64,000 bases of DNA, from NCBI GenBank assembly GCA_019054805.1, contig JAHQIY010000001.1, positions 4,788,501-4,852,500 on the forward strand, given 5' to 3'. Below the pieces are notes generated by a model, which saw nothing but the letters and a program-made list of their open reading frames with translations, made no database searches and was not told where the DNA came from. Both the position numbers and the translations under genes were made by a program. The number at the start of each line of letters is the position of its first letter. Position 1 is the stretch's first letter. The DNA is from Brachionus manjavacas. Lineage: Eukaryota > Rotifera > Eurotatoria > Ploima > Brachionidae. Positions 4,120-53,726 of the stretch are shown here, in pieces.

Positions 4120-4191
4120 TTCCCACACCGGGAATTGAACCCGGGCCGCCTGCGTGAAAGGCAGGAATCCTAACCACTAGACCATATGGGA
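4120..4191 (-). tRNA. tRNA-Glu (anticodon UUC), copy 1
   Basis: On the minus strand a 72-nt cloverleaf folds with a 7-bp acceptor stem (TCCCATA with TGTGGGA, one G-U pair) and discriminator A. The anticodon stem CCTGC/GCAGG encloses loop CTTTCAC, giving anticodon TTC. The T-arm is CCGGG-TTCAATT-CCCGG, and the A-box-like TGGTCTAGTGG is present. No intron is seen. A run of seven T follows the 3' end on the transcribed strand, a normal Pol III terminator. The sequence is identical to the copies at 4989-5060 and 8264-8335. Confidence 0.96.
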
Positions 4192-4988: not shown

Positions 4989-5060
4989 TTCCCACACCGG
5001 GAATTGAACCCGGGCCGCCTGCGTGAAAGGCAGGAATCCTAACCACTAGACCATATGGGA
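4989..5060 (-). tRNA. tRNA-Glu (anticodon UUC), copy 2
   Basis: Identical in all 72 positions to copy 1, with the same anticodon TTC and discriminator A. On the transcribed strand it is followed by AAAATTTTTTTTTG, a Pol III terminator. Its 5' flank (TCTGGTTTAATAGAAACAAA on the plus strand) closely matches that of copy 3 but not copy 1, so copies 2 and 3 were probably duplicated together with flanking DNA. Confidence 0.96.
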
Positions 5061-8263: not shown

Positions 8264-8335
8264 TTCCCACACCGGGAATTGAACCCGGGCCGCCTGCGTG
8301 AAAGGCAGGAATCCTAACCACTAGACCATATGGGA
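8264..8335 (-). tRNA. tRNA-Glu (anticodon UUC), copy 3
   Basis: Third identical 72-nt tRNA-Glu gene with anticodon TTC. The transcribed-strand 3' flank is again a T-rich run (AAAATTTTTTTTTC) suited to Pol III termination. The 5' flank (CTGGTTTAATAGAATCAAGT on the plus strand) matches that of copy 2 over more than 20 bases, supporting local duplication. Confidence 0.96.
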
Positions 8336-11033
8336 CCTGGTTTAATAGAATCAAGTAATCTACTTATTAAAGATAATAGGGATTATTCTCACTAAAAATA
8401 ATGTAAGTCTGGTTTGGAACTCGAGAAAAAAATTAAAGTAAACTACTAATTATTTATTCTAACAAAGAAGAGTTGTAATTTTTCTATTTTCGAAATAGAA
8501 TTTTCTAATTAATATAAAAGTAATTTTAATATTTTTGCACTCGTTTGGACTCGAATTTGTTACTTCATCAAAAATACCATGTACAAAAAGAGTAAGCAGA
8601 AGTTTTAAATTTTGAACCCTAAAAATTGATTTCCAAACTTCTTAATGTTGATTGAAAGGAGTCACGTTAAGGAAACTGTAGCTTGCAATAAAAAAGGTTA
8701 GAGAACCAACTTGATCTAATTTACATTAGACCTATGATTAGACATTTTTAAATTACATAATTGACAAAATTTAAAGTTGCTGTTAAAAGAATTCATATCG
8801 AATTAAAAAAAAAATCTCTCAAAAATCAATCATATCTTCAAAAGCTATTAAATAATTTTTATAAGAAAATTTCCAATCTATTTGAAAATATGAATTTTTT
8901 TCTGTTTAATTAATTATTAGAGGAAGCAAATTTTTTTTTGTCAAATTGTAATTTAGTTGTTATCAAATCCCTGTGAGATCATTCTTTTTTACAAGCCTTA
9001 CTAAGAACCAAAATAAAATAATAATATTTTATGAAGGTAAAACAAATAAAGGAAAAATTTATCACCAAATTGATTTTATCGACTTGATTCAATTTTTATG
9101 AATTGATCTAAATTTTTTCTTATTATCATATTTATTTTTCTTTTTTTCTTAAATCAGAATATTTGAAGACAATGTTTTTAAGAACCTAGATATTTTTGTC
9201 ATTAAATTATTCTTGTTTGTCAGCAGTTTTAAACGACACAGTAAACTTATCAAAGGTGTATATTAAAATTTGTAATTTTTTAGAAAAAATCTAATGATTT
9301 CTAAAACCTTTCAATTTTTAGTGATATACTCGAATTAAGCAATCTAATCTAAAAAAAATTGAATTTACCAATTTTTTTAAATATTAGCCCTTCACTTAAA
9401 CTCAAGACCTAATGCAATTAAATTTTAATTTCCTCAACAAACTTCATTTTCAAACGCAGCACTTAAAGTTGTGTTTTAAGTGAGGTATTTTTTTTCAAAA
9501 AAAATTTTTTCCACAGTCAACACTTATTTAGAATTTTTGAGTTAACTTATTGAGAGATTTTAGCAAAAGAAGGAACGTTACGTGGTGCGTGGTTTAAAAT
9601 TTAAAGTGGAGGTCCTCTTTCATATGGTTATACGGTATTAAAATTTTTTACTAAAATTTTACTTACAAAATTTTTTTAAAATATTTAAATACGGAAATTT
9701 AATTTTAGGTTTCTAAAATATTATTTAATTCACTATCTTGTTTAACTATTGAAGAAAATGGTTTTATCTTAAGGTTCAACTCCTTTATCAATTCATTTTT
9801 TGCACTAAGTTTTAGATTATGTATCATTTGGCACTGTACAAAGAATACATTTATTACATTTGAAATATATTTGAACCGTACAAACCTTACAAAATAAAAT
9901 TAGAATTAAAATTAATTTTTTTTCTGAAAAAAATTGACCTAAATGTGGCCACCACAATAACTGCATTTAACCCTAAAGATTAATCTTAATTATAATTAAA
10001 TTGTTTGATTTTTAAGTGAATCTTTAACGTTATTGTTTTTGCATTTATGTCAAAGACTTTGAAATGAATTTAAAAAAACATTATCAAGCCAGATCTAACG
10101 ATTTGACTTAAAAAAAATTTTAAAAGTCAAAATACTGACTTGACTGTGAAAAGACTTAATTTGACTTTTTTTTCTGACTTTTGCTCAAGTCTGGTAGAGC
10201 TATAGACAATGAGCTAATTATCTTTTAAATATTCTTTTGTGCCCTATGGTGTACTTTTGCTATGAATCCTTTTTAGCTTTGAATTAAAAGTGTACTTTTG
10301 TAAGCAAGCTTTTGCATTGTTTCCAGCTAATAAAATAAATATAAAAAGTTCCTCTCTTTTTTTAATTAACCTGATTCTCTAAACCAGGACTCCGTTTTTT
10401 TATGTAACATGTTTAAACCAAAAACGACAAAGTTCAAGACCTTGTAAAGGTAAAGGACCCAAAAGAACACTTTTTATGCTTTTTTAAGGAATTAAGTATT
10501 CAAAAATTAAAAATAAGTTCTTTGTCAATCCATGGTCTGGTATGGTGTCACGTGGGCTATTCATTTTATCTAGATCTTTCGCTAGATTTTGGTATAGTTT
10601 TTAATCTAAATGAAAATAATTAAAATCTTACTTCAAATGTACATTTTTAATTTTATTATTTTATTATTATTTAACAAATTTTTTAAATCTAATAATTCAA
10701 ATTTAAAAAAAGGTTTAATGGAATTTTTGATAAATGGATACTTCCTCACTGAATTTTCATCTTGAATCATTGATTTTGTTTTTTTTTTATTTAAAAATTC
10801 AGAATAACATACGCCTTTGTTGTACTTACAATTACAATTATTACCTTTTCATCGAATTTTCTCTTTTAGCGGAAAACATTGTTCCATAAATGGAAAAACA
10901 TTTGGCTTTATTCTAAATAATTGCTCGCAGATGCTTTAATCTTAATGTGCCATTTATTAAGGTTAAATTTTACCAAGACATAATTATCTAAATTAGCATC
11001 AGATTCAAAATGTAATCTGCCTAATTTTTTTAA
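8336..11033. other. AT-rich intergenic region
   Basis: No gene is supported. At about 10,065-10,185 there are several GACTT/AAGTC words and a terminus-like GCTCAAGTCTG. These recall the AAGTC-rich ends of the hAT-like MITEs at 38.9 and 49.7 kb and may be a decayed relative, but no second end or target duplication was found. Confidence 0.35.
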
Positions 11034-24494: not shown

Positions 24495-27400
24495 TTATTC
24501 AGCATTAAATAAAGACAAAACTGAACTTTTGTTCTGACTACAAACTGAGCACTTGTCACTATCCTGGATACAATCTTCATGAAAAGAATGTCTACACTCA
24601 AAAATTTTAAGACCTCTGGCCATATTCGCGTTGAATGCAATCAATGATTCATCACAAGCCGGACACTTTTGGTCATCGTCCACACTTACACCCTGCTTGA
24701 CCACTTTGATCTGCTTTTCGAGTAGATTAAAGCAATCTCTAGTCATTATGCTCTTGGATCCTTCTAACAACGATATTTGCACCCTGTAATCAGACAAAAT
24801 TTTGACCAACGCATCTCTCAAGCCTCTTATAGTAACTCCATTGGGAATTCGATTAATCAAATCGACAGGATCAACATGAGTACCAATATTGTTCAATAGG
24901 CCTATGATATAATCCGGTTTATTTACCGAATATTGGATCAAATCTTCCCATAAATCTTTGTCATTGTGTCGTTTACAAAACTCTATAGCTTGATTAACAT
25001 CTTTTATAGCATGAAGTACTATTTGTAGGCCTTTTTTTATTTGACCAGTACGTTCTAGTATGTACACTATTTCGGGTCCCAGATCCCGCTCTTGCAATTC
25101 TTTCTGTGCCTGGGTCAGTGATATATATTGACTTGACTGCAAAAACTTGAGAAGTTTGTCTCGCTGAAACTCAGCATACAAAACAACTTGAATTGTGTGA
25201 AAATCGCGTGAAATATTCGGATCTTTTTCGAATATAGCATCCAAATACTAATATAAATTAATAATAATAATAATAATATTAATATAAATACTAATAATAA
25301 TGTATTTTTATTAAAATTAATTAATTAAAAATCATTTTAATTTATTTAATTTTCGAAATTGAATTTGAATTAAAAAATGTTTAATTTAAGTAGAATTCAA
25401 TTCAAATATTTGATTATCGCGTCAACCTCGCTTTGTGTTCATATCATCATCAATAAATGTGGCCATTGAGAGAATTTTTTGATCTGACTAAATTTTATTT
25501 AAATTAATTCAAAAATATTACAATTTAATCATATTTTGTGATCTATGAAAATTAATTTAGTTTACTCAAGAAAACGTTTTCTAAAACTTTTTAATTCAAT
25601 TTAATACAGTGGTCGAAGTGAAACTTTATAATGGGTAAGATTACATTATTTTAAAAATTACACTTTATTACTTTTTTTTTACACCGTTTTACGTAAAATT
25701 ACACAATTTAATGTAATAATATGTAATTTTCTGTCATTTTTTTTTAAATTAATGAATTGGTTAATTTCCTTTATTTTTTAGATAATTTTAAAAATGATAA
25801 AACACCTTATGCAATTAAAAATGATTCGAAAAGTGAAACAATAAATCTTTTGTATTAATAAATAAAAAATTAAAAAGCAATTTTTTTTTATACTCTTATT
25901 TTAGCCTCAAAGACAAGTTTACAAATTTAATTAATAGAATATATATTTATCCTAAAGCTAATCACAAAATTTCTCTAAAAAATAAAAAAAAAATTATCTA
26001 GAAAAGTTTATTTTTAGCAAGTCATTTAAAATAGTAAAATAATAATATTTTTTTGTTACATATAATATTAAATTGTTACTACTTATATATAATTTAATGA
26101 AAAATTAATTGGTTTTTAATTCACTTCAAAGTCTGAAATAAATAAAAATAATTTAAATCCTTTTTTTATTGTATTTAATTTCTATGATTAAAAAAATATT
26201 AATTTAAAATTACTTTAAATTTATTTTAAGTAATTTTATATCGAAATTAAAATTTTATATCTAAATCTCTTTCTTAATTTTTGAAAAATTATTTTTATTT
26301 TTATTTGAATTGAAAAAGTATAATTTTGAATTCAAATTCAATTAATATTAAAACTGTTATTATAATAAAAGGCTTTAAAACATACGTAGTGTAGGTATAG
26401 TTTATTTTTGTTGAGTTTTTCAGCAACTCGTTTAACCGGTAGTTTTTCAACATTGTCGACTAAAATTTGAATCGATCTCTTAAAGTTTAATTAATAATTA
26501 TCTTGTTTTAGATTTAGATTGATTTTAATTTTTACTTGCTTATTCAGAGATATCAGCTCAATTAGATTTTTATAAGCACACTCGAAAAGTTCGTGCTTTA
26601 GAAGAAAATCAAAAACAGCCTGATCCTGTAAGTTTATGTATATTTCGAAAGCTTTATCAAACATTTTTTGGTACTCATACCTTAAAATTTAATTATTATA
26701 TTTTATTAAAAATAAGCAGTTGAATTATTCTTTAAGGAATTGAAAGCTTTGATTTAAGCTGTGATAAAATATTGGCCAAGTTACATGAATTAAAAATAGA
26801 TGTGGAAAAAGTTTTTTGACAAAAATTTAGAATTTTCAAATCGAGTTTAAAAGAATAATTACATTAAAGCCAGGCATTCATCCAAAATTTTATTTTTGCT
26901 CTTGTTACAGGCAGTAGCGATAGCTTGGGTGACACAGTCCAATCCATATATATCACAAGGCCACTTTCTAATCAAATACTTAAAAATCTCATAATCTCCA
27001 GATCTCAAAAACTCATTCAACACCTTTTCGTAGATCTCCGGCGACAGAACCGGATTAGATGAAGGAATTTTCTCAAATATATCCTAAAAAAAAATTTAAA
27101 TAATTCTTGCGGTTGAGTATTGTTTGATAAAAAAATTCAAAAAGCGTGGCCTCATTTAAAAAATTTAATTTTAAAATCAGTGATTTTGTGAATGGATTTT
27201 TTAATCTAAAATTGTTTTTTTTATAGTTTTAAGTATATTTAAAAAAAGATAGCAGCTAGATTTTAAAATATTTAAGTATCTAAAAAAAAATTATGTTAAA
27301 TTAAAAAATGGTGTCACCAAATCACTGATTTTAAAATTAAATCTTAAATCAGTGATTATGTCCTTTATTGTTGAATTTTTACCATTTTCTACAAAAATTT

Positions 27401-29615
27401 ACCAAAATTTACATCAATTTTGATCATAAAAATCAATCAAATTTAAATTTTTTGAAGTATTAAAAAATTCAAAAAAAAAATTCATGGAAATCTATTCTTT
27501 TTGTTCACTAAATTTTACAATAATTACCGGAAATTTACGATAATTTAAGTAAAATATGGTGAATTCATCGTATCGTAGCAGTACTTTAAATAACTACCTA
27601 ATTACAGTCTAATGCCAACTTTTTAAGAATTCTTTCGAATACTAAAATCAATTGTTAACTTTAAGTTCTTGTATCTTAAATAAATATTTTATATTTTGAT
27701 AAATTTTTATGTGTCAATTATTATTAATCACATTAATACAATTTTGGCCTATTCATTACATAAAATTATTTTACAAACCTCCAGTTTGCACTCTTTGGCA
27801 AAAATCAAAATTTTTTCTTCCCAATTTTTCTCAGACAAAGTCACTTTACTGCACCATTCAGCCGCTTCTTTGTACTCTTTAGCAGATATTAAATAATCGA
27901 TATAGTTCAGGCCGACTACTTGGTAAGTAAAAACCTTTGGCGATTCAGGCGCATTTTTGATGTCTTCCAAAGCTTGTTCAAAGTTAAGTCTTTCCATAAG
28001 CCACTTGATGTGGTCGTCGAAAGATCTGGGCGTCGCTTTAATCAAATCCTTAGGGCTTAGAATAAAGTATGAGCCCTCGTTTAAAATATAATCTAAACGA
28101 TACTCAAAAGGCCGATTCTTTTCGTACTCTTTAATTGTAATCGCATCAAAGGATATTTCAATAAAAGAGTCCGGACTGGCCTGAGCCACTCTAATGTGAG
28201 GTCTGCTGTCCTCTGATTTTTCATAGCACAGAAGCAAAAATTGATTCTGGTCTTTGAATGGTGCCAGACCAACTATATAAAAATCAGTTTTAACCAAACT
28301 GGTTATTTCTATATGAGAAATAAGACCAGAGTTTCTTGATCTTATTATTTTGCATATTTTGAATCTATCGGCCCATCCGATAATCAGCGAGTCTTTATCT
28401 TGCCACAGTAGTGAACAACGATAAAGCTCGTCTCTTAAAGTAGACTCATGATCTTTGGCAATAAAGCTAATTATCTTGTTTTCAGCTAGACTGTAAATTT
28501 TAACTCCTTTTTCATTTGACCAAGCTATGAGATCATTGCACCATTTTATGTTTCGTATAATACCTTCGCCTTGATGCAGAATACTTGTTTTTCTGCGGCC
28601 CATGAACCCTCTTTCGACCAAGACAAGTTTTGTGTCACCAGTAACAAAGCTGAGTGTTTGATTGAAATTTGGCGCCAATTCGATACTTTTTATTGGCCGA
28701 TTGAATTCAATGATTTGATCATGTTCCGATTCAAAAAGACCAAAAACTGCCACCTTGCCATCGTCACTGCATGATGCCACATACTCTTCCTTGATATCAA
28801 TCGTCAAATCATTTACTGTTAGCTCGTGCTTTATTAGAAATCAAGAAAACTAATCAAGGTGTAATGGCTAGAGTTGTATAAAAGTCATGACTTTACTTTT
28901 GAAAAAAAAATTAAAAAATTTTACATGACATTTTTAATAGAATTTTAGGCTAAACCATTAAAAACTATTAAAATTTAATTTTCTCTATTTATTAAATAGA
29001 AAACTTTATTTAATTTATTAAATAAAGTTTTATTAAATAAATATCTATGTAAAATTCAGTTCATATGAATTGAAGTCATTAATTAAATCAAATTAATATT
29101 CTTAAATTTTATTACTTAAAAAAAATTTTATTTCATTTTTATTTATCTATAGATAACTTTTATTCCAAACTAAAAACAAAAAGTGGGTTTTTGTAACTGC
29201 TCGGTTAGACTCGTGTAGTCAAAACTCTCAAACTATATTCTTAAAGAATAAAAAAATGATTTGAAATAAAAAAATTTTCATAAGTCTATACATGACTATG
29301 TTTATTAACCTGTGACTTTTATACAACTTCTTTTTATTCTTACCGGCTCTTTGGTCAAAACTTTGTTACCATCATGGTCCAAGACATGTACACGACCCCA
29401 ATGTGTTCCAACAATTAAAAACTTTTAAAAAAAAATGAATTTTGTTTTATAACAAATTTAAGTTTTACCTTACGATCGGCTTTGATGCAGCTCACCGAAT
29501 CGCTTTCAATTATACCTAAAACATCGTTTTTTATGCGCGAGTAAGCAAGAACTGGCTCGGCTTCGGCATAATCACTTTCCTCTTCTTCTTCTATCTTCTC
29601 GACATATTCTGCCAT
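24495..29615 (-). CDS. VPS41: VPS41, HOPS complex subunit
   Basis: Subunit of the HOPS tethering complex that drives fusion of late endosomes, AP-3 vesicles and autophagosomes with the lysosome. Seven exons on the minus strand: 29469-29615, 29344-29421, 27779-28828, 26863-27083, 26536-26680, 26386-26478, 24495-25247. All junctions are GT-AG and all phases match, giving 828 aa (human about 854). Layout: acidic N-terminus (MAEYVEKIEEEEESD), WD40-like propeller to about residue 370 (SCSDDGKVAVFGL, GEGIIRNIKWCNDLIAWSNE), an alpha-solenoid/clathrin-repeat region, the very conserved DLIQYSVNKPDYIIGLLNNI, and a C-terminal RING-H2. Zinc ligands are visible: C773-C776, C796-H798, H801-C804, C811-C814. 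Three introns exceed 500 nt and hold repeat relics, while others are 47-57 nt. It lies head-to-tail downstream of KAT2 on the same strand. Confidence 0.97.
25606..25745. repeat. TACAGTGG terminus with TTTACG words
   Basis: TACAGTGGTCGAAGTGAAAC opens an AT-rich segment with ACGTAAAATTACAC-type words, like the repeats at 12.4 and 34.9 kb. It lies in the last VPS41 intron (25248-26385). Only one end is visible. Confidence 0.4.
25890..26060 (-). repeat. Diverged LINE-C tail in VPS41 intron
   Basis: Shares AGCCTCAWAGRCAA-like and TTTTTAGCAAGTCATTTAAA text with the LINE tail at 18195-18530. Old and short. It lies in the last VPS41 intron. Confidence 0.4.
27150..27590. repeat. Hairpin and TTTACG repeat in VPS41 intron
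   Basis: AATTTAATTTTAAAATCAGTGATTTTG near 27163 reappears inverted as AAATCACTGATTTTAAAATT near 27318. A TTTACC/TTTACG-rich segment ending near GTAGCAGTAC follows. It resembles the TTTACG family seen at 12.4 and 34.9 kb. The whole block lies inside the 27084-27778 intron. Confidence 0.45.
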
Positions 29616-31130: not shown

Positions 31131-38340
<7,210 letters not shown>

Positions 38341-38928: not shown

Positions 38929-39583
38929 CAGAGTTGTTTTTAAGTCACAAGTCTTAAGTCAAGTCAAGTCAATGACTTGACTTAGATTTTTTTTTTTTTT
39001 TAAGTCAAGTCAATGACTTAAAAAAATTTTTTTTTTTTTTTAAGTCAAGTCAATGACTTAAAAAAATTTTTTTTTTTTTTTCTTAAGTCAAGTCAATGAC
39101 TTAAAAATTTTTAAGTTTAAAAAATCATTAAAAAAAAAGCGGCAAGTCAAAGTTACGGTCAACATTGTGGCGGGCGGTCATTTAGCCGTTCAGCTTGGCG
39201 GCCAGAATTTGGGACTGCGGCGCTGAAAAAAATATGCAAAAATATAATAAAAAATTAAAAAGTTAATAAAATTAAATATGTTTATTAATTAAAAAAAACA
39301 ATAATTTTTTTAAAAAAAAAAAAAACCAACGGCCAACAATCATCCACTACCAATAATACTCAATTTTAATGAAATAAATAATTAAAAGTATTTCTAATCT
39401 AACTCATGACTTGACTTAAAAAAAGAAAAAAAAAAATTTAAGTCATGACTTTGACTTAAAAAAAAAAAAAAAAAATTTTAAGTCATGACTTTGACTTAAA
39501 AAAAAAAAAATTTAAGTCAAGTCATGACTTTGACTTAAATTTTTGTGACTTAGACTTAAAACTGTGACTTAAAAACAAGTCTG
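38929..39583. mobile_element. hAT-like MITE, copy 1 (AAGTC family)
   Basis: Ends are CAGAGTTGTTTTTAAGTCAC (38929) and, inverted, GTGACTTAAAAACAAGTCTG (to 39583). The element is flanked by identical octamers AAAAATTT (38921-38928 and 39584-39591), an exact 8-bp target duplication as made by hAT transposases. Subterminal arrays consist of palindromic AAGTCAAGTCAATGACTT units spaced by A/T runs. A GC-richer core contains GCGGGCGGTCATTTAGCCGT and GACTGCGGCGCTG. No ORF. Copy 2, in opposite orientation, is at 49730-50553. Confidence 0.92.
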
Positions 39584-43552: not shown

Positions 43553-45690
43553 TATTTGTATATCTGTATCGAGCTAAGGCTCCTTCAGATTAAAAAAAAA
43601 AAATCAAAACAAAATAAAGTTTAAATAAGATAAAATATATAAAAAAAAAAGAAAAAGAAAATAAAATAAGTTAAAATAAAAGAAAATTAAAATTAGATAT
43701 ATTGCTTTAGAGAATAACAGGATACATATTTTTAAATGTCTGTTTTTTCAGGGAAAAAAGAAGAAATAGTAAGGTAGCAATTACACAATGGAGTTGGGTA
43801 TTCAATATATCTTGCTTCGAAACCTTCTTTGTATTCCTCCACAAGTCTGACAACCAATGGAATAGAATGACTCAGTCCTGCTCTAACATATCTCTCACTC
43901 AACTCAAAAAGTCGATTTGGGACTGTTAGTAGTTTAAGTTTATTATGCCTCATGCCTCATGATGCCTCATGATGCATTATGTTGGAGGGAGTATCATATT
44001 TTACTTTCAAGATGGATCTAACTGAATTTTTTTTTAATGTTGGTTTCTGTGAGTGAATTTAAACAAGAAAAATAATAATCGAGAATTGATCCTATTAAGG
44101 ATTTGTATAGATTCCCCTTTGTTTTGGGTTTAAAGCCCCATTTTTTACTCGATAGATATTTAATAATATTTAGTTTTGAGTTACACCGCTCTTTTATCTC
44201 ATCCACCATTAAACTAAATGTAAGTTTTGAGTCTAATGTAATTCCTAAGAACTTAACTTTTTCTTTTAGATTTAAACTGTTTTCATATAATTTTAGGTCA
44301 AGATTAGTTTTTTTTATAGAGTTTTTTTCAAAGATCGTGTAGCATGACTTTTTAACAGACATTTTCATTTTCCATTTGAAAATCCATTTTTCAATTTCTT
44401 TTAAGTACTTATTAATTAAACTCTCGAGAATTCTTTTCTTTTTAAAAATTAAAAAGGTAGCTAAGTCATCTGCAAAAAGAAGAGAGTATTGGCTATTGGT
44501 CTTATTTCTTTTAGGTATGTCATTAATGAAAATGCTTAAAAGAAGCGGACTAATTACTGATCCTAGTGGAACCACTGCTTTAATTAAGTATTGGTCACTC
44601 AAATGTCCGTTTACTTTTACTATAAAAGATCTGGAATCGAGAAATGATCTGATCCAGTAAATAAGATAAGGAGGAAAATTAGTTTTAATTAGCTTATAAA
44701 TTAGTCCATCATGACAAACTCTATCAAAGGCTTTAGAAATGTCAAAATATAAACAGCAGACTTTTTTCTTTCTATTAAAAGATTCTACTACTTTTTGTAT
44801 AAGAAAATAAAGATTATCCGCTGTGCGCCTATGTTTTCTAAATCCTGATTGCTCATTTATAAGTAGGTTATTTCTTTCAAGAAAATGGTATATTCTACTA
44901 TAAATAATACGTTCAAGTAACTTACCGAGGCAACTTGTCATACTAATAGGACGATAGTCAGAAGGTTCAAGTGGGAGGAGATTTCTTTGGGATCATAGTT
45001 ATACAAGCAATTTTCCAGGTTTTAGGGACATTACCTTGTCCCAAACTCATGTTAAAAAGATGACTCAATTCAACTTAAGACTTATAAAGGAGATTTTTTA
45101 ACATTAAGTTTTGGATGCCATCTATACCTGATCCTGACACTTCTTTTAACTTTTTTAAAGAGGATGTAATTTCTGAAACAGTAATTGGTTCAATCAGATT
45201 ATTTCGTAGATTATTTTTTTTAGGAAACCTGAGATTGTATCTGCTATTTCAGTATCACTCTCAGATATATCTAAATCTAAATTAGGACTAAAAGTCTTTT
45301 TTGAAATCTTTCCGAAGATTTCTCCTTTATCTTTATCTGTATTGAACCATTTTCAATCTTTAATTAACATGGGAATTTGGCTCGAACATTTCTTTGATCT
45401 AAATTTATTTATTTTTCTCCAAAATGGTCTGCTCGATAATGGGTTTCTTCCCATTTTATTATTAAACTCTTGCCAGTTTTGGTTCCAAAAATCCTTTAAG
45501 TTTGAACGTAACTCAGATGTTAGCTTATTAAATGTCATTTTTAGAGAAGGAATGTTGTTTTGCTGAAAAAGTCTTCGAACTTTCCTACGTTCCTTAATTA
45601 TTAATACAATGTTCTTCGGTAGACTCGATTTAAAAAATTTCTGAGATTGAAAAGGAATACTTTTTTGAGCCGCATTCATGATTTTCAATG
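43553..45690 (-). mobile_element. LINE-A non-LTR retrotransposon, 5' truncated
   Basis: Minus-strand element. From 5' to 3': pre-RT linker (45353-45688, KSIPFQSQKFFKSSLPKN, RPFWRKINKFRSKK), a gap with frameshifts, the reverse transcriptase (44018-44941), and a C-terminal tail (43732-43953). RT landmarks in order: GKLLERIIYSRIYHFLE, QSGFRKHRRTADNL, CCLYFDISKAFDRVCHDGL (first catalytic Asp), VVPLGSVISPLLLSIFINDI and the active-site FADD. The tail has RLFELSERYVRAGLSHSIP. The 3' end is TCTGAAGGAGCCTTAGCTCG followed by an (AAATA)n tail near 43,560. The endonuclease domain is missing and stops occur between blocks, so it is dead on arrival or decayed. Jockey/CR1-like by motif order. Family copies: 33.6, 61.6 and 62.8 kb. 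Confidence 0.9.
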
Positions 45691-47050
45691 AAATTAGTTC
45701 TTATAATACAGGGACATTGTAGATGGCTGTTAAAAGAATATTTTGAAAATCAAAATTCAGATTACTTTATTGGTAATTTGTTATCTTTAGAAATGAAATA
45801 AATTGAAAAAATTTAATATTTTAAACTTTAATAGGAGGCTAACTATGTCAAATTAAAAAAATTCTTACAACTATTAAATTTCCAAGCGAATTTTCCAGAA
45901 AATTTAAACAATATGATTCTAAACTTCAGTACAAATCATTAGAATTAAAACAATTTTTATTTTTCGTTTCTGTTCCTGTTTGAATGAAATTTTTGCCAGT
46001 TCCATATTGGAACTTACTTATATTATTCGTTTTTTCAAAGAGAATTTTCTATTAACCGATTGATAACCGAGATATGCTTGAAGTTGCTTAAAAAGATGAT
46101 TGAAAGTTATCACGATTCAATAGGCAAATATTTTGGTACTAGTTAATTTAATTACACTATTCACGCACATCTTCATTTATATGATCAAGCTATTATGCAT
46201 GGTCCACTTCAATGTCATAGTGCTTTTTTTTTGAGGTAATTTTAGGTAAAAAATTTTTTAAAAACTCAAAAGTTTTAAGGGTTCGCTTGGAAAATAAAAA
46301 AACTTATGATGGGAACTGATGGTTTTAAATAACCTTTATGCATTGATAGTAAAACTTGATATATAAAATAGTTTTCAAGATTTTGATAATTTATTTTCTA
46401 AAGATTTTTCTGCACTAGTTAGTATTGAATCTTTTACACATTTTTTCAAAATCTTTGAGCAAAAATTAAAGCATAGAAAAATAAGATGCGATGCGATTAT
46501 GTGTAAATGTATAATAATAGAAAAATTTATTACCAAAGTCTCGACTAATAAGCAATTTAGTGTTATTATTAAATTATACAATTATTCAAATAATTAAATT
46601 TCTTCATACAACTTTCTTCAACTTTTTCAATTTTTACAAATATAAAAACCCTTTTAATTATTTCAATTATTCAACTATTACAGTTATTCAACTTTCTTCA
46701 ACTTTCTTCAACTTTCATTAGATTTCATTATTTAGTCATAAATTCTGGAATAAAATTTATTATATTAAAGCAATTAAAAGCTTAGATTTATTAATTATTT
46801 AGTATTTCTTTCTTTAAATGTAACGAGTCTATCAGAAAAATATTAAAAATGACTTATTTAAAAATTTTAAAAAAATGATGTATGCAAAGATTGCATATCT
46901 TTTAAATTCAACCATCATAATCAGATCAGAATCTTTTAATAAAAATCGTTTAATTGAAGCGAAAAAGTGTTAAATTAACGTTTTTATGCCATTAAGTTGT
47001 GATCTTCTGTAAAGTGAGAATTTCAAGAATGACTTAAAAAATTTTTACTT
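45691..47050. other. AT-rich non-coding stretch
   Basis: No gene is supported. Imperfect tandem CAACTTTCTTCAACTTTCTT units occur near 46,600-46,735. Confidence 0.35.
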
Positions 47051-47054
47051 GTTA

Positions 47055-49085
47055 AAACATTTTTATTCTAAAATAAGTTTTTTTTTTAAGTTTAATTCAT
47101 TTAATTTTTCAAAAAGACAAACAAAATAGAAAATAAAATGATTTTTTGTGAAATGCTTGCAACAATGCTTATGCCTTGATACTAATCTAAAAGTCTGTTT
47201 CAAATTATGATTTTCATGAAATTTTTTCCTTGTATGATTCCTCAAATGAAATAAATATATTAAAAATATCAGTTGATTTGTTCTTTGATCGTCTTTATGA
47301 TGTTTGGCCCGATGCTCATGCAGCTGACAAGACTTTTCATAAATTACATACTTGAGATCTTGATCTTGTTTTTTTACTTTTAAAACTTCTTCCCAAATTT
47401 ATGTTATCTCAGAGAATTAAATAAATAAACCGCGAGGTGTAAGTCCAGTCAACAATCCGCCAGTTTTTTTTTGTTGAAATAAAGGCCATCTTCTAAATTG
47501 CATCCATCTGATATTATATTATTAATTTTTTTTAAATACAAATCTAGAGCTTTAGGCCATTTGGCTACCTCAAATTCAGGCAACCACCTTAGAAAAGGTT
47601 TACTATCCGATTTCACTTGATATTCTCGGAATTCATCATTATCTCTGTGATTTACAATTTAGGAAAAATCAACTTCAATAATAATATTAGTTTAAGCGTG
47701 TCAATTTTCACTAGTAAATAATTTTTGACTTACGCACAAATCTGTTCTTGCTCGACAATATTAAATACCCAATTAAGTGTTTTTTAAATGATTTTCAAGT
47801 CTTAAACAAGTCTTTTTACAATAAAAATAAGAAAAGGATTGTTTTTGAAATTGCAATATAACTTGATTGCGTATTTTATATTGTTGAGCAAGAATGAGCA
47901 AAAAGAAATTTGAGCAGAATTTTAACTTTGCCAAATTAAATTACTTGGATATAAAAATAGTTCGTCCTTGTCATCAACTCTAAAATTCCTATGTTCAAAA
48001 CAAAAATAGCTATCAGGTATAGGTTTCTCTTCTCAATAAACTTCTTTTTAAACTTTGGCTAAACAATGCAGTCTAATACATTTCTGATGTCTATCAAAAA
48101 CAACTAACAATTTTTTTTATAGACGTTTAATAAAATTCCTTTTTTTTAAATACCTGAAGATTTACAGTAGTTTATGTCACTTTCACAAGATTTTAAATGA
48201 TTTTTAATCCATTTATTCGAAAAAAATATTTTGATTTAGTTCTTTAAATATTAATTCTGTCGATTTGAAATCAAAAAAATTTATTTTTTAAGTCAAAGTT
48301 CCTAGATAATTTCTTGATTTTATGACTAAACCAAATCTCGCTCAAACGCTTTCGATTAAGCGCTTTGAGATTTTTTAATTGAAATTCTTCATTATATGCA
48401 TTTGTAAATCCTATTTTAAATTAATTTTTCATTTTTTATACTAAAGTGAAAAAACGGCTTACAGCATACAGCGCCCCTTTTAATAAATAAGTCTTAAAAA
48501 TAAACTAAAAAATATCTATTAGTATTAAATTTAGTAAATAGTTAAATTTTGAATTATAAATTGTATGCCTCTTTTTCTCTAATAGTTAAGTAAAAGTATT
48601 TAAGAATTGCATTATAAAAAAAAATACCTTCAAAACTAACTGCATTTATTGTAACATTTATTCCAAAATTTTCGATTAAAGCTCTTCAAATGCTGTTTGA
48701 TGACTAAGACAAATGAACTCTAAAGTGTCATCTATTTCCTCTGGATAAAAATAAGTTTTATCTTTTTTTGAATATCTGGCTTATAGAATCATAAACTAAA
48801 CTCCCATTTTTGGTGTATGTTATTTTTTCTTTTTTATTTTCTTTAAAAAGTTATTTTTACAGCTTAAACAAAATTCGATTGGCGGGGTAACAAATCTTTT
48901 ACGATTAGACAACATTTTTTGTAATGAATTAAATATCAACTTAGCTTTTGAGAAATCAGTTTTTGACAAAAACATGAATTTTTCAACTAATGCATCAATA
49001 TGTTCTAATGTCAAAGAATGTTTGAATTGACTTTTAAAGATTTCGACCAGAAGCTTTTTTTCATAACGTAAATCAAGTTGTTAGC
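47055..49085 (-). pseudogene. Cysteine-cluster (KDZ-like) transposase relic with chromodomain-like segment
   Basis: Fragments in correct order on the minus strand, in changing frames. 49085-48820: LEHIDALVEKFMFLSK then FVTPPIEFCLSCKNNFLKK (C-x2-C start of a cysteine cluster). 48800-48600: ITYTKNGSLVYDSI, IDDTLEFICLSHQTAFEEL, INAVSFEGI. 48400-48250: NAYNEEFQLKNLKALNRKRL then SEIWFSHKI. 48120-47950: LLVVFDRHQKCIRLHCLAK, where families with this layout have 'ID-H-K--R--C', then YFCFEHRN. 47690-47560: FREYQVKSDSKPFLRWLPEF and KWPKALDLYLKKI, chromodomain-like (EY-VKW ... WLPE). 47470: KKTGGLLTGLTPRG. 47350-47065: KYVIYEKSCQLHEHRAKHH and LFHLRNHTRKKFHENHN, where intact relatives read 'YD-AC-L' and 'D-FH--NH---C'. 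Both acidic catalytic positions are replaced. The family name is tentative: I know these motif blocks from multicopy animal transposases linked to the KDZ group, but could not search. Confidence 0.55.
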
Positions 49086-49729
49086 TCAAATTGCAAAGCT
49101 AAACAGTTCAAACATTTCATTAAACGGATATAAAATTCCATTTTTAATTTTCAACAATTTTTTCTAAAATATATATTCTAAAAAGAAAACAAACGTCTTT
49201 TTAACTAAAATAAATAAAATGTTCTTTACTAGTTTTATTTTTTACAAATCAAAGAAAAAATTTGTTTATTTTTTTGGTCGATGTTGGTCAAACTGTGTTG
49301 AATATGTTGAACGCTTTAACTGATTCTCATCCGAGGCTATGCCCTCCAAGTCATCATCTGAATCGTTTGATTTAAAGCAGTTAAATTTTTCAAGATATTG
49401 GTTAATAGATATTTCATAAAATATAAGTGAATTTATGAATTCTACCTTTTCTACTTCATTTAGCTTATTAAAATCTTTTTTGATAAAAACTTTACTTGGT
49501 TTGGCACCCTTTTTTTTATCTGCAATTTAAAATACTTAGCATCGTTTTTACCTATCTTTTTTTCTTCAAGCTTTAAACAAACCTTTTCAAAATCATCAGA
49601 TTTTCCAATTTTTTTCAAAGCAAATTTTGTCAAGCTAACCAATGTACCTTCAATCAAAATGATATTTTTTTCTAACTTATCCCCGCTTTTTAGTTTATAA
49701 ATAGGAGTTCTATGATTATCAGCATTAAC

Positions 49730-50553
49730 CAGACTTGTTTTTAAGTCACAGTTTTAAGTCTAAGTCACAAAAATTTAAGTCAAAGTTATGACTTGACTTA
49801 AATTTTTTTTTTTTTTTAAGTCAAAGTCATGACTTAAAATTTTTTTTTTTCTTTTTTTAAGTCAAAGTCATGACTTAAAATTTTTTTTTTTTTTTTAAGT
49901 CAAGTCATGAGTTAGATTAGAAATACTTTTAATTATTTATTTCATTAAAATTGAGTATTATTGGTAGTGGATGATTGTTGGCCGTTGGTTTTTTTTTTTA
50001 ATAAAATTATGGTTTTTTTTTAATTAATAAACATATTTAATTTTCTTAACTTTTTAATTTTTTATGATATTTTGGCATCTTTTTTTCAGCGCCGCAGTCC
50101 CAAATTCTGGCCGCCAAGCTGAACGGCTAAATGACCGCCCGCCACAATGTTGACCGTAACTTTGACTTGCCGCTTTTTTTAACGATCTTTTAAACTTAAA
50201 AATTTTTAAGTCATTGACTTGACTTAAGAAAAAAAAATTTTAAGTCATTGACTTGACTTAAAAAGAAAAAAAAATAATTTTAAGTCATTGACTTGACTTA
50301 AAAAAAAAAAAATTTAAAGTCAAGTCATTGACTTGACTTAAAAAAAAAAAAAAATTTTTTTAAGTCATTGACTTGACTTAAAAAAAATTTTTTAAGTCAT
50401 TGACTTGACTTAAAAAAATTTTTAAGTCATTGACTTGACTTAAAAAAAAAAAAAAATTTTTTTAAGTCATTGACTTGACTTAAAAAAAAAAAAAATCTAA
50501 GTCAAGTCATTGACTTGACTTGACTTAAGACTTGTGACTTAAAAACAACTCTG
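49730..50553. mobile_element. hAT-like MITE, copy 2 (AAGTC family)
   Basis: Same termini as copy 1 in opposite orientation: CAGACTTGTTTTTAAGTCAC at 49730 and the inverse of CAGAGTTGTTTTTAAGTCAC ending at 50553. Flanked by identical octamers GCATTAAC (49722-49729 and 50554-50561), an exact target duplication. The core (GACTGCGGCGCTG inverse, ATGACCGCCCGCCACAATGT) matches copy 1. The right arm contains about eight AAGTCATTGACTTGACTT units against about four in copy 1, which explains the greater length. The insertion splits the coding frame of the DUF3987-like gene between ...RVNA and NADNHRTP. Confidence 0.95.
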
Positions 50554-51639
50554 GCATTAACTCTATTAAATTGTAGGTCTGTATTAGCTGCCATATTCAT
50601 TTTTTGATTAATGAAATATTCATTAATTTTTGATGCAACTAAAACTGTTCCATCACTGATTTCGCTACTTAACTCTTGTGATTTTATATATTCACAGAAT
50701 GAACGAAAATTAAACTCATCAAAACTTTCAGAATCATGTAGTTGAAAGAAAGTTTCAACAATTTTCAAAACTTCTTCTAAAATATGCATTATTCCCGATA
50801 AACGAAGAAGATGACCACAAGATTCACCATAAATTCCCCTAAAAAAATTAATATAAGAATTTAAAACCATTCTAACACAAAAAAAAACTCTTGAGAAATA
50901 AATAAATATTAAATTAACAAATAAAGTAATTAAATTATCGCATTTTTTTTTATCCAAATGATCAAATTTAGTTTATTAAATAAAAATTTTGTTCTGTTCT
51001 TTTGTGATGAGAGTTTTCTCTTTAGTTTAGTTAACTAGAAATTAGTAGACTAAATTCAAATTAAAATTTTTCATACAAAAAAATTGTAAAAAAATTAAAA
51101 TACCCAAAATAAAATTTAAAATTTAATATTTGTTGGAATTTTAAAGAAAATTTAAATGTCAAATAAAAAACATGAGAAAAAGTATTGGTTCGGTATTAAG
51201 AAATATTTCTATACTAAGAGATAATTTTGAAACAATCAATTTTTAATAAAGAGGAGGAGGAGAATAATTTAGAGGAGCAATCATTTTTTTTATTAAAGAA
51301 ATTCACTTGTTTAGAGCTTAAATTATTTTTGCCGCTTAAAGGAATAGCGACAAGCTTGCCGCTTTTATTCAAAATCTTTACTCACAAAATTTTATGATGT
51401 TAGTTTTATCTTTTGTAAACAGATCTTAAAAAATAATTTTTTAATATAAATATAAATATCCAATATAACTAGTTTATCATTTCATTTTTGAACAGAAGCT
51501 AATTTTATATTTTCAATATATATAACTTTAACATAAATATTTCCCTGCTTGCCCTCCTTCTCGGGATTGAACTAATACTAGTTGACTTATTTTTAGTTAA
51601 CTTATTTTAGTTGTCTAAAATAAAGTCGCCTTAACTAAA

Positions 51640-52050: not shown

Positions 52051-53726
52051 AGGAAAAATATTTAATCCAAACAGTTGTCTAATTAAGTTGTTTTGTAATT
52101 TATTTTATTGAATCCTAAATGACCCATTAAATCTTTTTATTTCAACTTTTTTTTTAAAAAGTAAAAAACGCTGAAAAAATAAATTGTCTTCCTGATATTT
52201 TAAATTTATAGATCCAAAAAGTGGAAAAAATTTTTTTAAAATCAATTTTTTCATGCAGATAAATATGTAAAATTAATAGGTTTTTTTAAAAATACGTACC
52301 CGATAAAAGTCTCACTAAGTTCAAACTACACATCTTGTTATAAAGATGAATCTATTCATCCAATAACTTAAAAGCTGCTTCAGTGAATTTAAATTGACAA
52401 GGTTTTTGAAAAAATAGTTTAATAGCGACAAGCAGATTTAATATATTAATTTTATTTTCATTGTGAGTTTGCTGTGAAAACTTCAATCTCACAGGTTCTG
52501 GGAAGCATACTAAAAACCTTGAAATAAATCCATCATCTTTACTGCTTTTTTCCTCTTCAACTAATTCGACGATCTTGTCAGGATGACTAGCGGAAAAAAT
52601 CGAAATTTTTAGTTCATTAAATTCATATCCAAAACTTTTGGAGCTGACTGACAAGTCAGCCTCTCCAAAATACAACGTCTAGAAAATTGAACGGTCAAAG
52701 CCTTCTTTTCCAGCTTTATACATACCAAAACTACCAAGAAGCGTTGAAAACTCATCTCAATATTGCATAAGTTCAAAGCAGCATGAAAGTTCTTTAAACA
52801 AAGACTCAATAGTAAAACCTTTTTAATATTTATAGATAAATATTTTTTTTATTCAGAAATTTTATAAATTTTACTGTTATTTTGACTTGGAAGAGAAGAA
52901 AATTTGTTGTTCGTTGAGTCTGAAGAAATTCCAAAATAACCTAAATCGATTAATATTTTTGTCATTTCTGAAAACGACTTTTTGAAAAGCTGTATGTAAA
53001 AACTTTTTTTTGCGCTAACAGGTCCAACAAGTATTGAATAAATAGTCAAAGGCTGGCACCAAGCTTTTACCATAATACTAGACTTGCACGTAAGAATTGA
53101 AAACGTGCTTATTAGTCCTAAAAAAAGGCCTAACCATGACAAGCTCTTGTGTATCCTTAAAATTAAACAAACCAAAATCATTAAATTTTAAATATTAATC
53201 AATTTTTAAATTTCTGTTTTTGATTAAACTTTAAATAAAATACTATTTAATCTTCTATTTTTAAGACATTTTTTTGTATATTTCAAATTTCCTATTATCA
53301 TTTTTTGATAATTTTATTCTTTTTATGTGAACTCTTCATTAATTCAAGTTTTTATTACTTCAATTATTCAATTATTCTATTATTAAACTTTTAAAAATTT
53401 ATAATTAACTCATTCTTCCAAATCTTATTAAAAGTTGAACTGTTCAACCTATTTTATTTATTAATAGCTGTATCCTTTTCCAAATTCAGGCATCTTTTTT
53501 CATCCTTGAAATATACAAATAAAAAAAATAAAGTGAAAACGTATATGGTTAATTCAATACGTTAAGTCAATATATGGTTAATTTTAAAATTAGATTTCTT
53601 TAAATTACAAATTTTATTGTTTTAAAATTTTATGTTAATAAACTGAGTAATTTTGACTGTCTCAAAATCAAAAAATGCTCTAAATCATAATTCGCTATAT
53701 GTTTTATCTTTTTCATTATTTTTATT

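Follow-up and report, generated by a model that had tools for sequence, protein, structure and literature searches.

A decayed KDZ-group DNA transposon that very probably carried a DUF3987 ATPase gene upstream of its transposase gene

The minus-strand stretch from about position 53040 to 47066 of the window, i.e. the whole 64,000-nt stretch of DNA analysed here (C1:4788501-4852500; 26.7% G+C), is very probably an ancient and no longer functional copy of a KDZ-group DNA transposon, a cut-and-paste element with two genes. Its first gene would have encoded a DUF3987 P-loop ATPase, a predicted helicase, and its second a transposase of the KDZ type, which would have had clusters of cysteines and a DDE-type core; this second gene would comprise several exons, as in relatives. 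Both genes are recognisable by their homology, order and decay, and in young relatives inverted ends and 8-bp duplications enclose the two. The genome searched for relatives was the 114 Mb assembly of 61 contigs.

An earlier note on this DNA had described a KDZ-type transposase relic at 47055..49085. All of the blocks that it quoted were present on the minus strand in the order claimed, from CLSCK to FHLRNH, and the feature was found to exceed that interval, as a second decayed gene is located at about 53040-50769 (-). The pieces of the transposase relic are listed below; CLSCK and TAFEEL were placed by eye, from pattern and position relative to L009 (the type of a recent family in this genome) and L080 (a further relic) only.

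48823..49080, minus strand: N-terminal piece with CLSCK (48870-48856), the start of the Cys-cluster region; position by eye and pattern against the CxC5 exon of L009 and against L080
48676..48770, minus strand: block TYFYPEEID...TAFEEL of the Cys-cluster region (TAFEEL at 48696-48679); pattern common with ETYFYPAHI...QETCF of L080, by eye
48274..48420, minus strand: block FTNAYNEEFQLKNLKALNRKRLSEIWF; 62% over 37 aa to L057 (E 9e-12)
48402-48343, minus strand: block NAYNEEFQLKNLKALNRKRL
47991..48193, minus strand: second Cys block KSCESDINYCKSSG, with FDRHQK (48098-48081) and IPDSYFCFEH
47452..47658, minus strand: segment claimed to be a chromodomain, conserved stretch IVNHRDNDEFREYQVKSDSKPFLRWLPEFEVAKWPKALDLYLKKINN; 56% over 45 aa to L043 (E 9e-12)
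Inside 47658-47572, minus strand: EYQVKSDSKPFLRWLPEF, the block quoted for the claimed chromodomain
47420..47518, minus strand: block TGGLLTGLTPRG, with TGGLLT from 47464; 63% over 19 aa to L057 (E 4e-5)
47066..47398, minus strand: relic of the KDZ catalytic core, with YEKSCQLH, FLIYLFHLRNH and KHCCKHFTKNHFIF; E(Q) region missing
47341-47318, minus strand: YEKSCQLH
Within 47266-47234, minus strand: FHLRNH

The frame changes and intervening stops among these pieces are indicative of a relic. FDRHQK was observed by eye to line up with the aspartate of IDGNYK in L009. The acidic residues of YDKS, LID(L/R)FH and the E(Q) stretch, which we take to be catalytic, are altered in the window, where YEKS replaces YDKS, LIYLFH replaces LID(L/R)FH and the E(Q) stretch is absent; all of these blocks are unaltered in L009, as are the last two in L002 and L058. 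With its stops, frameshifts and changed acidic residues, the window copy is dead.

Stop-to-stop pieces of the window were shown to match relics elsewhere in the same genome with E-values down to 5e-29, which places the blocks beyond chance. Several window blocks, with their order kept, were identified in L057 (C4:1005k), L002 (C1:3029k) and L058 (C3:272k), while further colinear relics are represented by L080 (C8:198k) and L043 (C8:1080k), the latter interrupted by an insertion that reads like the reverse-transcriptase tail of a LINE. The catalytic-core piece exhibited 62.5% over 72 aa to L057 (E 5e-29) and 60% over 55 aa to L002 (E 3e-22), and the region of the second Cys block gave colinear matches to L057 (E 7e-4, 0.001 and 0.04). 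Judged by sequence, the window blocks are one decayed, predicted KDZ-type transposase.

The assignment to the KDZ type made in the earlier note is supported through a chain that leads from these relics via L058 to the L009-type protein. The window core matched L058 (about C3:271k-272k) at 48% over 50 aa and 66% over 35 aa, and L058 in turn matched the L009-type protein (E 9.9e-6). A Pfam KDZ search of the genome returned two hits, the only one above the cut-off being the L009-type protein (34 bits on PF18758; cut-off 26.6), with which a genome search yielded at least 59 matches. The exon upstream of the L009-type KDZ exon contains CxC5 (PF18718, 40-42 bits), a domain that scored above its cut-off in L009, L010 and 10 genome loci; at one CxC5 hit, L079, the KDZ core was absent by eye in the translations listed. 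The window core piece itself reached 12.3 bits on PF18758 (E 0.14), under the cut-off of 26.6, and direct comparison of the window with the L009-type exon gave E 7e-4 (25%, 122 columns) without composition correction. The Pfam scan, which covered the window pieces apart from three with internal stops, returned zero matches for the N-terminal piece at 48823..49080. A scan of viral contigs for relatives found nothing.

Further features were observed around the relic and elsewhere. The interval separating the relic genes contains open pieces of 86 aa and 97 aa (49269-49753, minus strand); neither matched Pfam, and they may represent a 5' part of the transposase. Dense AAGTCA/TGACTT palindromes at 49740-50530 surround a repeated piece coding for SYGQHCGGRSFSRSAWRPEFGTAALKK, a similar piece being located at 39121-39255; the array and this piece may together form a small repetitive element that was inserted between the relic genes. 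A few kb past the 3' end of the relic, a reverse transcriptase fragment is located at 44021-44992 (-) (PF00078, 129 bits). On the same contig, C1:8021955-8058425 (partly within L045 and L046) contains four KDZ fragments spaced 11-12 kb apart, which suggests a tandem array whose repeat unit includes a KDZ relic. The window also encodes animal-type proteins according to Pfam, namely VPS41 (pieces at 24498-28840, minus strand) and a PCAF_N protein (acetyltransferase-bromodomain and PCAF_N pieces at 31134-37932, minus strand, which look like a GCN5/PCAF gene), as well as three closely spaced tRNA-Glu (TTC) genes of equal score (4120-4191, 4989-5060 and 8264-8335, minus strand).

The segment at 47452..47658, which had been claimed to be an embedded chromodomain, directly precedes the TGG block, with one frameshift between them. 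Counterparts were recognised by eye in L057 (IINHPDKIIRCEYPVKS) and L080 (YRFKCDSEPRLRLVP), and the homologous position is also occupied in L009; the segment is a conserved part of this KDZ transposase family and not of a neighbouring gene. It is probably an ordinary, lineage-specific part of the KDZ domain, whose likeness to chromo and Tudor domains would reflect shared strand-strand-helix patterning only. Consistent with this, the PF18758 alignment of L009 begins at residue 83, within the segment (profile position 28), and L009-type segments resemble both chromo and Tudor profiles, and not SH3. In hhalign comparisons with a profile of 20 chromodomains taken from the same genome, eight L009-type segments scored 16.1 (reached by 0/200 shuffles; 1/200 and 2/200 when trimmed); these segments were chosen by homologous position, their chromo look having been noticed before testing. 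The Tudor profile gave 14.5 for the same segments (2/200 shuffles) and 11.6 for the window segment (48/200), while the L080 piece scored 19.0 against Tudor (0/200) versus 8.4 against chromo (32/200). The SH3 profile was not above shuffles for the window segment, the L009-type segments or the L080 piece. Against an ordinary KDZ-domain part, residues 76-125 of L009 contribute only about 3 bits to its KDZ score, so that the KDZ profile hardly recognises the segment.

The second gene was located by comparison with the young L009-type element, which produced two matches upstream of the transposase relic on the same strand, namely DEFSTLLGSFGMYKAGKEGFDRSIF at 52756-52682 and a piece at 52678-52355 (blastp of both helicase-like pieces to the young element, E 2e-5 and 4e-5). 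When all 1831 stop-to-stop window pieces from both strands were compared with the two gene regions of that element at E<=1e-3, the matches comprised these helicase pieces (52355-52756) and the KDZ piece at 47066-47398, the latter found only when composition correction was off; other matches to the young element at this threshold were of terminal-repeat type (10213-10284). The pieces of this gene are the following:

52972..53040, minus strand: Walker A-like stretch YSILVGPVSAKKSFY..., in which the GK of the relative is changed
52361..52816, minus strand: core of DUF3987 (PF13148) with DEFSTLLGSFGMYKAGKEGFDRSIF and KSSKDDGFISRFLVCFPEP; 33.5 bits (cut-off 27), read through 2 stops
50505..50972, minus strand: probable helicase-like C-terminal part YGESCGHLLRLSGIMHILEEV; weak match to L047:7336-7935:- (E 0.002 for the pair)

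In a PF13148 search of the genome the window locus (C1:4840861-4841316, minus strand) was the third-best hit; the 52355-52678 piece alone scored 23.2 bits, under the cut-off of 27. The Walker A-like stretch matched YSCLVANPSTGKST of the young KDZ element weakly (42% over 26 aa, E 0.037). The C-terminal window piece had no Pfam match, and its counterpart L047:7336-7935:- gave a sub-cut-off DUF3987 score (18.4 bits, E 0.0014). No primase family was present among the Pfam matches of the pieces scanned. DUF3987 is described as a predicted helicase of mobile elements in the excerpt of PMC5862659 available. By these profile and pairwise matches, the second window gene is a decayed gene for a DUF3987 P-loop ATPase, a predicted helicase.

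To relate the two genes across the genome, 15 DUF3987 rows at E<=0.1 were merged to 12 loci, and KDZ rows at E<=1e-3 from two genome searches were merged by eye to 51 places. The co-location count covers these places alone and sets aside KDZ loci known only from additional searches, as well as weaker rows such as C2:4078172 (E 0.002), whose DUF3987 neighbour, ~1 kb away, shares its strand but stands in the opposite order. Seven of the 12 DUF3987 loci were located within 10 kb of a listed KDZ place, and in all seven the DUF3987 hit lies upstream of KDZ on the same strand, at a spacing of 3.4-6.5 kb; conversely, a DUF3987 partner was recorded for seven at most of the 51 KDZ places. Five of the paired loci belong to the recent L009-type family, with KDZ exons 90-100% identical, the others being C1:4083k (55-63% identical to that family) and the window, so that the pairs represent about three independent lineages. 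At a further KDZ relic, L052, an upstream piece resembles the end of the helicase gene (28% over 47 aa, E 7e-7 for the pair).

The ends of the element were examined in two L009-type copies on C3, which are 99.4% identical over 9.67 kb. Both start with GAGCAATAGACAATGAACTT and end with AAGTTCATTGTCAATCCATG, exhibit inverted ends with a common 12-bp end GACAATGAACTT, and are flanked by 8-bp target duplications identified by eye (TGAAAAAA and GGAATTGG); the DUF3987 and KDZ hits both fall inside these ~9.6 kb copies. A third copy has the same right end, the end that this comparison covered. For the window copy, an inverted-repeat scan of 46300-51000 revealed no convincing ends among the 25 of 213 pairs listed, most of which derive from the separate AAGTCA/TGACTT array. 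An exact-word scan of both relic flanks gave one 12-base inverted match, at chance level in A+T-rich DNA, and no target duplication was found in the regions scanned. Elsewhere in the window, 10213-10526 contains a decayed end of a young L009-type KDZ element, with terminal-type repeats on the plus strand and an end-like GACAAAGAACTT on the minus strand near 10515, possibly a non-autonomous element or a solo end.

The DUF3987 and KDZ genes might alternatively be separate mobile genes that merely lie close together. In line with this, five of the 12 DUF3987 loci, including the two best-scoring, have no KDZ hit within 10 kb, and at the best hit, L104, an ATPase relic is accompanied by a reverse-transcriptase piece, the KDZ core being absent from the open pieces listed over 6 kb. 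However, separate genes would hardly be expected to keep the same strand and order, at 3.4-6.5 kb, in every pair, or to lie together within the ends of copies with 8-bp duplications, and this explanation is considered unlikely. With DUF3987 upstream in all seven pairs, the window among them, and with both genes inside the young copies, this appears to be a lineage of KDZ transposons with two genes.

Along the lines of the earlier note, the segment might instead be a genuine chromodomain within a KDZ transposase, directing insertion to chromatin with methyl marks; this reading is very unlikely. The segment did show some resemblance to chromodomains: by hhalign it scored 18.3 against the 20-chromodomain profile (P 0.0023) in the expected register, a score reached by 1/200 and 0/200 shuffles in two runs, and it ranked first among 344 window pieces of 45-110 aa, to which the score of the L009-type profile given above may be added. 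However, six of the 20 true chromodomains, each left out in turn, scored 42-79, and the Tudor profile performed comparably for two of the three query sets. The L009 segment was outside the top 8 of 48 single-sequence 60-aa windows against the chromo profile, the match between the window segment and the L009-type profile was weak (hhalign, P 0.27), and structure prediction from the single sequence returned a low-confidence model (pLDDT 57) of helices only, with zero strands. What we take to be the position of the chromodomain cage tryptophan is occupied by S in the window and Y in L009.

Searches with PF00385 itself were negative. At E<=10, a setting at which HMMER filters drop most matches above about 0.1, no hit was obtained in the window segment, the L009 protein, the L010 piece or nine alignment members, and the claim of an embedded chromodomain is thus left without a PF00385 match either in the window segment or in the eight homologous L009-type segments. 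The genome contains 79 Chromo hits, all of them outside the listed KDZ places; the closest approach is at C3:443681, where 2.2 kb separate the hit from a KDZ fragment of the opposite strand. A search of PDB sequences with the segment gave four matches at E 0.54 or worse (STH1, hypothetical secreted protein), and a profile of segment relatives gave none at E<=10. Tudor_2 (E 0.13) and CTK3 (E 0.013), each in one of nine segments scanned, were taken as noise. By profile comparison, the resemblance to chromodomains appears weak and non-specific, and the segment passed no test of membership; with no PF00385 match, the proposed histone-reading role in guiding insertion is unsupported, which corrects a tempting claim of chromatin-targeted transposition.

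That the blocks arose by chance or belong to several neighbouring genes, the latter named in the earlier note as what would refute it, is extremely unlikely, for while stops and frame switches are many and the CxC5 exon of L009 matched the window at noise level only (best E 0.23, outside the relic), several of the blocks recur colinearly elsewhere in the genome, in L057, L043 and L080.

In a two-gene KDZ transposon of this kind, the transposase would bind the element ends through its Cys clusters and then cut and paste the element, a mode assumed from the family, and the ATPase may assist by target choice, unwinding of the ends or a gain in copy number. The chromo-like segment is a conserved insert that follows the block of the first catalytic aspartate and precedes the TGG block. 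Among bacterial systems, TnsC, IstB and MuB are ATPases that work with transposases. By analogy with these, KDZ elements here might combine a DUF3987 ATPase captured from mobile elements of prokaryotes, which aids the transposase with targets or unwinding, with a small, rapidly diverging insert in the transposase, a distant relative of the chromo/Tudor class that contacts chromatin; this fuller scheme is speculative and rather doubtful. If a two-gene architecture is true, the stable pairing of an ATPase gene with a cut-and-paste superfamily of eukaryotes would parallel the ATPase-assisted transposons of bacteria, and a gene may be missing from annotations of KDZ elements in animals.

The relic is ordinary in itself, while a two-gene KDZ architecture was not found described in the literature searched. 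No paper with both KDZ and DUF3987 was retrieved by that search, outside which the founding KDZ description lies, and the matches listed reported neither a KDZ-chromodomain nor a KDZ-DUF3987 combination, although such absence is not proof. Extra genes in KDZ elements are already known generally (PMC12477816, in excerpt), and fungal KDZ elements carry TET/JBP genes according to the excerpt of PMC12730594, where 'helicase' occurs once, about Helitron; the word is absent from the text available of PMC12810828. An Ectocarpus paper that mentions both KDZ and chromodomains assigns, in the excerpts, the chromodomains to Gypsy elements, and it separately reports extra genes in giant DNA transposons.

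Compared with the chromodomain (PF00385), as it occurs for example in chromodomain Gypsy retrotransposons, the segment has a weak, register-consistent pattern (I-NHR...EY-VK...W-PE), but falls under every membership threshold, and Tudor resembles some of its members equally or better. Like the DUF3987 helicases of prokaryotic mobile elements, the upstream gene has a P-loop ATPase core above the family cut-off, and the DUF3987 locus L104 matches the DNA helicase PHROG 2373 (E 2.5e-5); unlike its bacterial and archaeal counterparts, it is located in an animal-like genome, beside a KDZ transposase. With known KDZ (Kyakuja-Dileera-Zisupton; PF18758) elements, the element described here, as seen in its young L009-type copies, shares the transposase core, Cys clusters, 8-bp target duplications and a multi-exon gene. 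As far as the excerpts of the respective papers report, such duplications are of 8 bp in Zisupton (PMC12730594) and Cryptococcus KDZ1 and of 4-8 bp in KDZ2 and KDZ3 (PMC12810828), and the gene of Pristionchus Zisupton is multi-exon (PMC9297572). The element differs from these known KDZ elements in the presence of a DUF3987 ATPase gene upstream of the transposase.
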